The translations under genes and the position numbers were made by a program. From Rodentibacter mrazii (GTDB lineage: Bacteria > Pseudomonadota > Gammaproteobacteria > Enterobacterales > Pasteurellaceae), in NCBI RefSeq assembly GCF_001998825.1, contig NZ_MLHG01000006.1, forward strand, positions 1-47,174: a stretch of DNA of 47,174 nt, written 5' to 3'. The notes beneath the pieces were generated by a model that had not been told where the DNA came from, did not search any database, and saw only the letters and a list, made by a program, of their open reading frames with translations. The first letter of the stretch is position 1; every line of letters begins with the position of its first letter. Positions 3,369 to 47,174 of this stretch are shown here, piece after piece.

Positions 3369-4160
3369 ATGAAATCTATTTATCTTACAAAAATTCGTGA
3401 GCAAAACCCGCTTATTCATAATATTACCAACATTGTTGCGGCGAATTTTAATGCCAACGGATTATTGGCATTAGGCGCTTCACCGATGATGTCGGCGAGC
3501 GAGGAGGAAATGGTTGAAATGCCCAATTTAAGCCAAGCTCTTGTGATCAACATCGGCACGCTAATTGGCAAAGAGCAGAAAGCCATGTTATTGGCGGGGA
3601 AAACGGCGAATGCGAAAGGGATTCCCGTAGTGCTTGATCCTGTGGGTGTGGGGGCAACGAGTTACCGCCGAGAAACCGTTCGTCAGCTTTTGTCTGAAAT
3701 AAAATTTGCACTGATTCGTGGGAATGCGGGTGAATTGGCAACGATTGCCGGTGAAACGTGGCAAGCAAAAGGCGTAGATGCCGGACAAGGCGATGTAGAT
3801 TTGAAAACCGTTGCTCAACGTGTCGCCAAACAGTACGGCTGTGTCGTATTGATTAGCGGAGCGGTTGATGTGATCAGCGATGGGGTACAAACCGCAACTG
3901 TGCATAACGGCACACCTTTGTTTCCTAAGGTGACGGCATCGGGTTGTTTACTCAGTGCCGTTTGTGGTGCGTTTTTAGCGGTAGATGAGGGCGAACATTT
4001 TGCAGCAACGTTAGAAGCCTGTGTGGCTTATACCGTTGCAGGTGAACTTGCCGCTCAAGGTCTGACGACTCAAGTAGGGCAATTTCAAATACGTTTATTA
4101 GATGAACTGGCGGCACTTAGCCCGGAAATGATCGTACAAAAGGGGCGTATCAATGAATAA
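3369..4160 (+). CDS. thiM: Hydroxyethylthiazole kinase
   Basis: Phosphorylates 4-methyl-5-hydroxyethylthiazole (HET) so it can be used by ThiE. The protein begins [20 protein letters not shown] and shows [17 protein letters not shown], typical of ThiM, and the C-terminal [14 protein letters not shown] catalytic loop. Three ATG codons lie in a row at 3363, 3366 and 3369. The third is chosen because AAGGAG at 3357-3362 is six bases from it and touches the first; the annotation may start at 3363 elsewhere. The end overlaps thiD by eight bases. Length is normal for the family (about 263 residues). Confidence 0.95.
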
Positions 4161-20670: not shown

Positions 20671-21645
20671 ATGGATGCAAGCCTAAATATTGCCATTGCG
20701 GCAGAATTTGAATTATGTGAGAAAATTGCTGAAGCTCTTGAAGAAAGTAAACTAACGATAGGTAGCATATCAATTGTAGAAATTTCCCCTTTTGATGAAG
20801 AACAAGGTGTGCGTTTTAACAATAAAAGCGTTGTACAGCGTTCTGCGCAAGAAATGGATTGGTCTGAGATTAATTACCTCTTTTTTTCCGGTGATGTCGA
20901 ACAGTTAGCCTCTATTGCGATTGCTGCTGAAAGCGGTTGCGTAATCATTGATATGAAAGGCGTATGCGCTGCACTTTCCGATGTACCTGTTGTAGTACCG
21001 ACAATTAATGAGGGTGATTTAGTTGAATTAAGACAACGTAATATTGTGAGTTTGCCGGATCCTCAAGTTAGCCAACTTGCTTTGGCGATTTCGCCAGTAT
21101 TGCAAACAACTAATATTACTCAAATTTTTGCGACTTCCTTGCTTCCTGCTTCTTATCAAAATGGTGAAACTGTCAGTAAATTAGCAGGACAAACAGCACG
21201 TTTGTTGAATGGTATCCCGTTAGATGACGATGAAAAGCGGTTAGCATTTGATGTCTATTCACAAAAAACAACAGCCTTGTCAGAACAATTTCAAAAGATT
21301 TTTCCTCAATGTAATTCTGTGCTATTTCATGCTGTGCAAGTACCGGTATTTTATGGTATGGCGCAGAAAGTGACCGTACTTTGGGATTATGAGACGGATT
21401 TCCAACCGCAAGATAATGAACTTTTACAATACCATGGTACAAGTATTACACCAGTAATAAATGGGGAAAGAGAAAGTGGGGAAAGACAGGTAAAACTACA
21501 TATTAATCTGTTAAGTGCGGTTGAAAACGGCATGGAATTTTGGACGGTAGCGGATGATCAACGTTTTAATCTCGCTTATCTTGCTGTCAAATTACTCGAA
21601 GCTATTTATCATCAAGGTTATAATTTTAAGGAACAATTATGTTAG
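20671..21645 (+). CDS. usg: USG-1 protein, aspartate-semialdehyde dehydrogenase-like
   Basis: A 324-residue homologue of aspartate-semialdehyde dehydrogenase of the USG-1 type. The N-terminal Rossmann part is weak, and the dehydrogenase active-site cysteine block is not seen at its expected place, so catalytic activity is doubtful, as for the family. The central [13 protein letters not shown] and GERQVKLHI match the family dimer region. The ATG has GGAGA at 20661-20665. It overlaps the next gene by seven bases, so the two are co-translated. Function is unknown. Confidence 0.85.
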
Positions 21646-44379: not shown

Positions 44380-44465
44380 CAGCGTTGAAAGAGAAAATCT
44401 CATTGCAACTTTTGACGTAAAATCATATCCTAATGGGCGATTTTTTCTTAAAAAAAGAGCAAATT

Positions 44466-47075
44466 ATGTTAGCCAAAGCAAAATATCGAAAAGATTATAA
44501 AACTCCGGATTTTACTGTTACGGACATTCATTTGGATTTTCAGTTAGATCCGAATCACACCGTTGTAACAGCAACCACAAAATTCCAACGCTTAAATGAC
44601 GAAGTAACCAGTTTGCGTTTAGACGGTCATAGTTTCCAATTTTCTTCCATTAAATTTAACGGTACACCGTTTACCGCTTATCAACAAAACGGTGAAAGTT
44701 TAACTTTAGATTTAAGTGATAAAAGTGCGGTTGAATTTGAACTGGAAATAGTCACTATTCTTGTGCCGGCAGAAAATACCTCTCTACAAGGTTTGTATCA
44801 ATCGGGCGAGGGTATCTGCACACAATGTGAAGCGGAAGGTTTTCGCCAAATTACTTATATGTTGGATCGTCCTGATGTTCTCGCGCGTTACACCACAAAA
44901 ATCACGGCAGATAAAACGAAATATCCTTACTTACTTTCCAATGGAAATCGTATTGCTGAAGGTGAATTAGACAACGGTCGCCACTGGGTTGAGTGGCGTG
45001 ATCCTTTCCCGAAACCAAGCTATTTGTTTGCCTTAGTGGCGGGTGACTTTGATCTTTTGGAAGATAAATTTACCACAAAAAGCGGACGGGAAGTGGCGTT
45101 AGAACTTTACGTGGATCGTGGTAATCTTGATCGTGCCGGTTGGGCGATGGAAAGTCTGAAAAAATCCATGAAGTGGGATGAAGATCGCTTTAATCTCGAA
45201 TACGATTTGGATATTTATATGATCGTTGCGGTGGATTTCTTCAATATGGGGGCGATGGAAAACAAAGGATTGAATATTTTCAATTCTAAATTTGTATTAG
45301 CGAATCCACAAACGGCAACGGATGAAGATTATCTTGCTATTGAAAGTGTGATCGCACACGAGTATTTCCATAACTGGACGGGGAATCGTGTAACCTGTCG
45401 TGATTGGTTCCAATTAAGTTTGAAAGAAGGCTTGACGGTATTCCGTGATCAAGAATTTTCTTCCGATACCGGCTCTCGTGCGGTAAACCGTATCAATAAT
45501 GTAAAATTTTTACGCACTACACAATTCGCTGAAGATGCCGGCCCAATGGCGCATCCGATTCGTCCGGAAAAAGTGATTGAAATGAATAACTTTTATACGG
45601 TTACCGTGTATGAAAAAGGCGCAGAAGTGATCCGTATGTTGCATACTTTATTGGGCGAGGAAGGATTCCAAAAAGGGATGGCGTTATATATTGCGGAAAA
45701 TGATGGCAAAGCCGCTACCTGTGAAGATTTTGTCTCTGCAATGGAGAGGGCGAACGGGCTTGATTTAACTCAATTCCGTCGTTGGTATAGTCAATCAGGC
45801 ACCCCGGAATTGTTGATTAGCGATGCTTATGACGAACAAACCCACACCTATCGTTTAACCGTTTCTCAATCTACCCCGCCAACAGCCGATCAAATGGAAA
45901 AAGTCAATCTCCATATTCCACTAAAAATGGTGTTGTATGCTCAAGACGGTACGAAACAAATGCTGCAGTACAACGGTACACCATTAAGCGGGGTATTAAA
46001 TATTACGGAAAAAGATCAAGTGTTTGAATTTCACGGCATTTATGGTCGCCCTGTTCCGGCATTGCTGGAAGATTTTTCCGCACCGGTGAAATTAGATTAC
46101 GATTACACCACGGAACAACTTCTTACTTTATTAAAATTTTCCGAAAATGCTTTTGTGCGTTGGGATGCGGCACAAATGTTATTGACGAACGAGTTACGAC
46201 GTAACGTGACTCACTTCCAACAAGGAGAAGATTTCGAAATTTCACCTCAAATTTTGACCGCACTTTTATCAGTGTTGGAAAATTATGAAGACGATATTGA
46301 ATTGGCAACCCTAATCCTTACCTTACCACGGGATATTGAATTTGCCGAAAGTTTTAAAACCATTGATCCCGATGGTATTGTAGCTGCACGCTCGTTTATA
46401 TTGAAGACCATTGCCGAATATCTGAAAGAGCCACTGCTTAAAGCTTACAACCATATTCGTTTGGATGAATATCGTATCACTCAACAGGATATTGCTCTAC
46501 GTGCAATGCGAAACCTTTGCCTAAATTATTTGGCTTATACCTCCTTTGGCAATAATCTCGTTCATAAGCATTACAATGCGGCGAATAATATGACGGACAC
46601 TCTCGCGGCACTGGCTGCGGCAACCAAAGCTTCTCTTCCGTGCCGTGATACCTTGCTCGCAGATTTTGAGCAAAAATGGCAACACGATGGCTTAGTGATG
46701 GATAAGTGGTTTGCATTACAAGCCACCCGACCGGATGAAAATGTGTTAGACATTGTGAATCATCTAATGGCTCACCCAAGTTTTAATTTCAACAATCCAA
46801 ACCGTCTTCGTGCTTTAGTGGGGAGTTTTGCTAATCAAAACCTTAAAGCTTTCCATGAAATCAGCGGTTCAGGTTATCGTTTCTTAACAGATGTATTAAT
46901 CCGCCTCAACGACAGCAACCCACAAGTTGCCGCTCGTCTGATTGAACCCTTGATCCGTTTCGCCCGCTACGACGCCCAACGTCAAACCTTGATGAAACGG
47001 GCATTGGAGCGTTTAAGCACTGTTGAAAATCTTTCTAGAGATTTATTTGAGAAGATTGAGAAAGCGTTGCGCTAG
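44466..47075 (+). CDS. pepN: Aminopeptidase N
   Basis: Zinc metallopeptidase of the M1 family that removes N-terminal residues from peptides in the cytoplasm. The 869-residue protein has GAMEN for substrate N-terminus binding and the zinc site H298-E299-x2-H302 with E321 (HEYFHNWTGNRVTCRDW then KEGLT). The start at 44466 (MLAKAKYRKDYK) is favoured, with AAAGAG at 44455-44460; an upstream in-frame ATG at 44433 has no family support. Uptake signals lie at 44723-44731 and 46257-46265. Confidence 0.96.
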   Translation: MLAKAKYRKDYKTPDFTVTDIHLDFQLDPNHTVVTATTKFQRLNDEVTSLRLDGHSFQFSSIKFNGTPFTAYQQNGESLTLDLSDKSAVEFELEIVTILVPAENTSLQGLYQSGEGICTQCEAEGFRQITYMLDRPDVLARYTTKITADKTKYPYLLSNGNRIAEGELDNGRHWVEWRDPFPKPSYLFALVAGDFDLLEDKFTTKSGREVALELYVDRGNLDRAGWAMESLKKSMKWDEDRFNLEYDLDIYMIVAVDFFNMGAMENKGLNIFNSKFVLANPQTATDEDYLAIESVIAHEYFHNWTGNRVTCRDWFQLSLKEGLTVFRDQEFSSDTGSRAVNRINNVKFLRTTQFAEDAGPMAHPIRPEKVIEMNNFYTVTVYEKGAEVIRMLHTLLGEEGFQKGMALYIAENDGKAATCEDFVSAMERANGLDLTQFRRWYSQSGTPELLISDAYDEQTHTYRLTVSQSTPPTADQMEKVNLHIPLKMVLYAQDGTKQMLQYNGTPLSGVLNITEKDQVFEFHGIYGRPVPALLEDFSAPVKLDYDYTTEQLLTLLKFSENAFVRWDAAQMLLTNELRRNVTHFQQGEDFEISPQILTALLSVLENYEDDIELATLILTLPRDIEFAESFKTIDPDGIVAARSFILKTIAEYLKEPLLKAYNHIRLDEYRITQQDIALRAMRNLCLNYLAYTSFGNNLVHKHYNAANNMTDTLAALAAATKASLPCRDTLLADFEQKWQHDGLVMDKWFALQATRPDENVLDIVNHLMAHPSFNFNNPNRLRALVGSFANQNLKAFHEISGSGYRFLTDVLIRLNDSNPQVAARLIEPLIRFARYDAQRQTLMKRALERLSTVENLSRDLFEKIEKALR

Positions 47076-47091
47076 ATTATTTAAAATGTAA

Positions 47092-47115
47092 GGACACACG
47101 CAGTGTGTCCCTACA
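47092..47115. repeat. Single copy of the GGACACAC palindromic repeat
   Basis: GGACACAC, GCA, GTGTGTCC then CTACA repeats the right arm of the structure after ribE (9248-9271) base for base. It begins 17 bases after the pepN stop. Only one arm is present here. Confidence 0.85.
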
Positions 47116-47151
47116 AATATCACTTGACATTCTTAAATAGGAGCAAAAAAT

Positions 47152-47174
47152 ATGCTTGCCTTGCCTTGCCTTGC
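47152..47174 (+). CDS. Start of a probable phase-variable gene, cut by the window edge
   Basis: An ATG at 47152 with AGGAG at 47139-47143, eight bases upstream, is followed at once by four CTTGC units (47155-47174) that run to the end of the window. Translated, the repeat gives a five-residue period Leu-Ala-Leu-Pro-Cys. Because the unit is five bases, gain or loss of one unit shifts the frame. Such repeats at the start of genes are typical of phase-variable surface or modification genes in Haemophilus. The product is unknown because the body is outside the window. Confidence 0.65.

Follow-up and report, generated by a model that had tools for sequence, protein, structure and literature searches.

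A CTTGC repeat in a short leader ORF as the probable switch of a type III restriction-modification system in Rodentibacter mrazii

The mod-res locus at a contig end

The stretch of DNA analysed here (the window, 47,174 nt) is contig C93 of the 135-contig, 2.48-Mb and possibly incomplete genome of Rodentibacter mrazii (G000). Its 3′ end carries the following features:

44433..47075, plus strand: pepN, an ORF of 880 aa, upstream of the putative switch
47087..47115, no strand assigned: inverted repeat (13 pairs) separating pepN from the leader and resembling a terminator only when read on the minus strand
47124..47151, plus strand: promoter-like site TTGACA-16 nt-AAAAAT (10/12 matches), ending directly before the leader ATG
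47139..47143, plus strand: Shine-Dalgarno (SD) sequence AGGAG of the leader ORF, read from the sequence
47152..47154, plus strand: start codon ATG of the leader ORF, read from the sequence
47155..47174, plus strand: CTTGC tract, 4 units to the contig end, its downstream part very probably on the minus strand of contig C91

The product of the 880-aa ORF, which we take to be aminopeptidase N-like and hence name pepN, is encoded in all 15 genomes of the genus. The window ends with AGGAGCAAAAAATATG(CTTGC)4, in which the tract (CTTGCCTTGCCTTGCCTTGC) extends to the very last base; the four units are a count up to the contig end, the assembly breaking within the tract. The initial annotation had placed an SD and an ATG directly before CTTGC x4 at this edge, and on this point the reading of the sequence agrees with Tandem Repeats Finder, which reports 4.0 units at 100% match. 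A perfect 4 x 5-bp repeat is expected by chance about 4e-5 times in 47 kb, assuming uniform bases. A genome-wide search for other CTTGC tracts, suggested in the same annotation, returned one further CTTGC x3 site, at the end of contig C91, giving two sites in the entire assembly; a reversed control pattern produced 0 matches genome-wide, and a shorter CTTGC pattern agrees with the two-site result.

The minus strand of C91 begins with TGC and CTTGC x3, followed by CTAAACTAAACG; it reads TGC(CTTGC)3CTAAACTAAACGATAATTGCAAGC...TTCGGAGGTCAAATGATCTCTGAA, and the ATG there opens a 626-aa ORF. The order on this strand is tract, 67-nt spacer, mod (626 aa), 10 nt and res (962 aa). Mod matches PF01555 (N6_N4_Mtase; 1.8e-44), PF18273 (EcoP15I C-terminal domain; 2.7e-31), EcoP15I Mod (4zcf_A; 1.5e-177) and PADLOC MTase_III (3.7e-226), and Res contains the helicase and endonuclease domains PF04851 and PF19778, scoring 1136.8 bits against NCBIfam PRK15483 and 1134 bits against EcoP15I Res (4zcf_C). 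Judged by these matches, the mod-res pair is a type III restriction-modification (R-M) system of the EcoP15I group.

Very probably, the reverse complement of C91 is the far side of the window tract, with the two contigs being neighbours and the CTTGC tract continuing past the window onto C91. We infer this join, which no read spans, from the lack of any CTTGC x3 site in the genome besides the window edge and the C91 end, and from the organization of related genomes. In two congeners without a Mod match (G122 and G124), pepN is directly followed by a gene starting MQDVINGLLVVLVPMLLGYLLK, which in the window's genome sits after the 962-aa res ORF on C91; hence, the empty site brings pepN next to the post-res gene of C91. 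Furthermore, a genome of another genus (G014) carries the leader start, CTTGC x6, a matching spacer start and the mod start, all unbroken. The context preceding the tract, AATAGGAG[CT]AAAAAATATG, is common to the window, G014 and the congener G125, which has similar sequence downstream of pepN and whose contig likewise breaks within a CTTGC tract. Across the 15 genus genomes, the stretch following pepN was readable by motif in 12: the tract is present in 2 (G000 and G125), the site is empty in 2, something else is found in 7, and in G123 the contig ends 46 nt on. Altogether, five Rodentibacter drafts break at the mod leader tract (G000:C91/C93, G120:C32, G121:C29, G123:C33 and G125:C22). Since the G123 assembly passes intact through a different CTTGC tract, 13 units long, these breaks hint at longer or mixed-length mod tracts.

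Leader reading frames and the predicted hairpin at the mod start

In the leader frame, the tract would encode (LALPC)n, in line with the Leu/Pro/Cys-rich leader foreseen in the initial annotation, which had further regarded the tract as coding sequence at the 5′ end of the switched gene. The latter assignment has to be abandoned, as the mod frame contains a stop codon 15 nt upstream of the mod ATG and, consequently, a fusion of the tract with Mod is impossible at any number of units; no length class places the repeat in the Mod frame, as one would in the in-ORF SSR type. Phase variation within the gene, as in modA or Neisseria modB, would be in keeping with the 37 of 56 repeat-bearing Mod loci in which the tract is in the Mod frame, including Neisseria gonorrhoeae L073, but a stop intervenes in the mod frame between tract and start not only here but in all 13 leader-type loci examined (see below), making this explanation extremely improbable for the present locus. 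An in-frame fusion of tract and Mod was rejected; it would require both a wrongly assigned mod start and ribosomal frameshifting.

The three tract frames reach their stops at -66, -61 and +1, counted from the A of the mod ATG. The possibility, raised at the outset, that the tract leads into no open frame thus applies to the first two, which stop early, but fails for the third, which stays open to the mod start and terminates in a TGA overlapping it (ATGA). By arithmetic, this coupled frame requires 3 + 5n + 67 + 1 to be divisible by 3, that is, n = 2 modulo 3.

We consider it likely that the repeat switches a phase-variable type III R-M system on and off through translational coupling. The tract sits in a separate short leader ORF, outside mod, and switching would be a relay of translation rather than an in-gene frameshift; in this form, by way of the leader frame, the earlier proposal that the tract renders a gene phase-variable is probably correct. 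Ribosomes would start at the leader ATG (47152) and translate (LALPC)n across the CTTGC tract. With n = 2 modulo 3 (5, 8, 11 ...), the leader frame would remain open through the spacer and end at the TGA of ATGA, and the ribosome would melt a hairpin masking the mod SD and ATG before re-initiating on mod. In the other two classes, into which slippage at the locus would bring the tract, translation would stop 61-66 nt before mod, the hairpin would stay closed and mod would be off; the unprotected mRNA may be lost too.

In classical translational coupling, the stop of the upstream ORF overlaps the downstream start, and a hairpin over the downstream SD is opened by upstream translation. The present locus resembles these systems in its stop/start overlap and, by prediction, in the masking of the downstream SD and start. 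It differs from them in having a repeat-bearing leader as its upstream ORF, so that coupling would be heritable and still reversible. When the 55 nt spanning each start were folded, the ATG was enclosed by at least 5 predicted pairs at 18/18 loci (17 mod loci, with G225 included and G244 left out, and G001) versus 23/47 repeat-free Mod starts, the latter being those that remained after 28 of 75 control loci had been skipped for want of a clear start. At most of the 18 loci, the SD lies in one arm of the predicted hairpin and the first mod codons in the other, G032 being a case in which the SD is not within the hairpin. Compared with dinucleotide shuffles, the mean z is -2.03 for leader loci versus -0.06 for repeat-free loci (P 2e-5), and the mod start downstream of the window has a predicted MFE of -14.8 and a z of -3.42. 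Comparison of 13 loci with 47 other genes yielded P 2e-5 for MFE and P 2e-6 for SD pairing. Under synonymous codon sampling, 10/13 loci fold better than their own mean and 5/13 rank among the lowest 5%; the combined P of 0.0014 refers to loci that are non-independent. The signal is uneven: the hairpins of G113 and G033 are weak (MFE -3.9 and -3.1; z +0.5), and G014 and G049 (z -0.5) and Moraxella lacunata (z +0.5) are barely or not better than shuffles. Eight fused-type starts, including that of G007, in which hardly any repeat is left, have MFE values from -2.1 to -5.9. Elsewhere in the window, the genes at 21639 and 30043 overlap the preceding gene, and their starts are strongly paired, as expected for coupled pairs.

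The leader layout among Mod loci

To place the locus in a wider context, Mod was searched in 140 genomes of the family (75 with a match), in a named collection (best 80 of 570 relatives) and in 199 Moraxellaceae genomes (79 with a match), and 5′ regions were fetched for part of these matches. Among the matches listed, 121 of 177 Mod loci lack a repeat, 37 carry the tract in the Mod frame, 18 are leader-coupled and 1 is neither, with at least one tract-less locus being counted twice, as L124 and L193 apparently are one Rodentibacter contig (15,082 bp). Thus, where the tract is out of the Mod frame, 18 of 19 repeat-bearing loci, from Pasteurellaceae and Moraxella, are leader-coupled. The sole exception, L249 (G217), has an AACC/ACCA tract with no open frame, apparently resulting from a one-base homopolymer difference; its homologues are in frame with Mod. 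The named collection extends well beyond the two families, and among the matches listed from it, a repeat is absent at 75 of 78 loci.

The leader loci employ nine repeat units, namely, CTTGC, CACCG, GCAAC (= CAACG), AGCAC, CCATG, ACAAGCCT, AGCCTAC, AATC and AATTCGC, with perfect tracts reaching 46 units. At all 17 leader-type loci considered (16 mod and 1 type IIG, a set without G225 and G244 (3 residual units), both of which are included in the 177-locus count), exactly one tract frame terminates in the interval from -2 to +10 around the downstream start, and both others stop 22 nt or more ahead of that start. This one-open/two-closed layout, observed in 17/17 loci, is expected in 4.24 when the spacer bodies are shuffled. 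G000, G123, G014 and G001 share a homologous spacer, the exact core of which, with no mismatch, is found only in these four among the 140 genomes, and hence are not independent; the remaining loci differ in unit or spacer. In G001, the leader precedes a type IIG R-M gene (6.5e-220; PF02384). In a tree built from 41 Mod proteins (a Neisseria entry, the remaining one of 42 rows, being without sequence), the leader layout requires 8 changes, at least 6 of them forced by well-supported branches, suggesting that the layout was gained or lost repeatedly; the tree contains some long branches and its bootstrap has not settled. Of 12 loci with a visible leader start, six are in the coupled frame at the assembled length (G049, G048, G107, G032, G001 and G118), and six stop early (G014, G113, G031, G030b, Moraxella cuniculi and M. 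lacunata), and two of these uncoupled loci, G014 and G030b, additionally have a stop inside mod. In M. lacunata, no ATG directly precedes the tract.

The SD of mod (GGAGG) is strong and might act alone, which counts against coupling. Such autonomy would suit a scenario in which the leader and repeat are left over from an in-frame tract and mod is now constitutive, and related genomes indeed contain a repeat-free leader ending in ATGA (L231 of G198) and a vestigial leader (L234 of G187). However, neither the one-open/two-closed frames across many divergent spacers nor the long perfect tracts would be expected of a relic, and we regard this explanation as quite improbable. Under the preferred coupling model, the leaders of G198 and G187 are possibly locked forms of the switch, that of G198 as if locked on.

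In addition, GCAAG, the reverse complement of CTTGC, occurs 13-20 nt after several CTTGC and CCATG tracts (L001 on the minus strand, L055, L069, L063 and L057); pairing with the tract RNA is conceivable, as is an origin from an uptake sequence. A different kind of repeat, a run of about 15 C near position 1330, lies in the 5′ part of a short mod-like remnant at L268 (G235).

Promoter-like box, related tracts and known systems

The element immediately upstream of the tract opens the alternative of a transcriptional switch, in which unit number would set how far apart, or on which helical face, promoter or regulator elements lie. A scan of 46950-47174 found 1 promoter-like site versus 0.3 expected. 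TTGAC is present 19-24 nt (27 in G031) before the tract-preceding start in 21 of 31 repeat-bearing loci, including N. gonorrhoeae L073, with 10/13 leader-type and 11/18 fused-type loci compared with 0/54 background starts; in these counts G000 and G125 are near-copies, and a 32nd row, a non-mod locus, is left out. Such conservation is unlikely to be an accident. Averaged across 20 loci, one of which is empty, the best -10 offset falls on the ATG, which itself inflates the score. A transcript from TTGACA-16-AAAAAT would begin inside the tract and hence lack the leader ATG, which speaks against coupling; the promoter box and the frame evidence can be reconciled only by assuming another transcript start, e.g., read-through from pepN.

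A transcriptional mechanism has been hypothesised for modO of Moraxella catarrhalis (PMC6241649, in part), in which CAACG(n) lies upstream of the ORF (parts of PMC7302503 and PMC6241649). Relative modO mRNA in strain 23246 rose from 1.00 at n=9 to 20.66 at n=10 and was back at 1.75 with n=11 (PMC7302503, Table 2). This roughly 20-fold shift is in the mRNA itself, as a transcriptional switch would have it, and 9, 10 and 11 units of 5 bp also match alternating helical faces. One high value in three lengths fits coupling, but helical-phase alternation also gives low-high-low; the coupling model predicts that expression tracks n modulo 3, not parity. At the present locus, the sole promoter-like site is upstream of the tract, so that n would not alter the spacing within that site and a regulator site beyond the far side of the tract would be needed. 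Furthermore, a transcriptional switch leaves unexplained the leader SD and ATG, the stop-start overlap and the 17/17 one-open/two-closed frames. Overall, we consider it unlikely, and favour coupling through the leader. The modO locus shares with ours a type III mod and a pentanucleotide tract upstream of the annotated ORF, modO expression being length-dependent; it differs in the transcriptional control proposed for it, and the parts of PMC6241649 and PMC7302503 examined mention no leader ORF. The M. catarrhalis modO locus was not recognised among the 22 genus genomes searched, but a Moraxella relative (G225) carries the rotated unit CGCAA x12 in a coupled leader.

The CTTGC unit, held to be unusual in the initial annotation, is less so than thought: tracts of x4 or more are present in 11 of 140 family genomes. 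Their contexts vary, and the idea that the tract marks one gene family was rejected. A coupled leader accompanies CTTGC x4 tracts at mod in G000, G014 and G049:C98, and also in G001; no coupled layout was found at the CTTGC tracts of G036, G050, G068, G123:C87, G132, G134 and G049:C120. The uncoupled tracts have 16 units in L056, 13 in L062, 11 in L059 and L064, and 6 each in L063, L060 and L058. At L061 (G116; minus strand, near position 3593), CTTGC x6 shares its frame with a long ORF, 477 codons as counted from the tract, which looks like an ordinary in-gene repeat, with the ORF start resembling a signal peptide.

The tetranucleotide CAAG gives a similarly mixed outcome. Of 19 CAAG-tract loci, six are in frame with a long ORF (L294, L295, L298, L301, L304 and L306), two have overlapping stop and start (L296 and L300, although the upstream frame of L300 may be a real gene), three have an uncoupled downstream ORF (L289, L302 and L305), and the rest have no coupled or in-frame ORF. 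Therefore, the leader layout is not universal for repeats upstream of genes. L296 (G061; tract at 1501-1577) has a CAAG x19 leader, the third frame of which ends in ATGA at an autotransporter-like ORF (MNHIFRVIWNTSIQSW...), suggesting that the leader switch may exist outside R-M genes. In lex2A/lex2B of Haemophilus influenzae, a repeat-bearing short ORF precedes the functional gene. The repeats of lex2A are CAAG (PMC2651432, in part). According to the same source, H. influenzae biogroup aegyptius F3031 has CAAG x32 located 58 bp upstream of an EcoRI-like methylase gene, making it a candidate for the leader layout.

SSR phase-variable type III mod genes include modA, modB, modM and modP/modQ (PMC11475388, in part; for modM, PMC6241649, in part). 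The R. mrazii system is similar to these in combining type III Mod and Res with a perfect short repeat near the 5′ end and a three-state logic. Unlike in the known genes, in which the repeat is inside the mod ORF, it lies here in a separate leader touching the mod start codon. Our literature searches on SSR, coupling and modO, including the parts of PMC10030836 and PMC2651432 examined, returned no description of a repeat-bearing leader coupled to mod, and a search for publications joining leader peptide, phase variation and R-M found none. In part of one published account, translational coupling and SSR phase variation are treated as separate classes.

On the basis of the recurrent layout, we tentatively propose, with nearly even expectations that it will hold, a third way in which repeats drive phase variation, in addition to in-ORF frameshift and promoter spacing. 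It would consist in a portable leader cassette (SD-ATG-repeat-spacer-hairpin, with overlapping stop and start) that is on in one of three repeat classes and changes both translation and mRNA level; the cassette would have been acquired or lost on several occasions by type III mod genes in Pasteurellaceae and Moraxella, be present also before a type IIG gene, and count among its members repeats elsewhere described as upstream and transcriptional, modO first. Any methylation-controlled regulon, which would make the system a phasevarion like those of the known mod genes, would lie downstream of such a switch. In the leader layout, the N-terminus of the enzyme contains no repeat-encoded residues, something that is impossible for the in-ORF type. 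Scoring of methyltransferases as ON or OFF usually asks whether the repeat keeps the mod ORF in frame. A leader-type mod always looks intact and its repeat looks intergenic, and hence in-frame scoring fails and switch states would be missed. Among the matches listed, this type makes up 18 of 56 repeat-bearing Mod loci, about a third.
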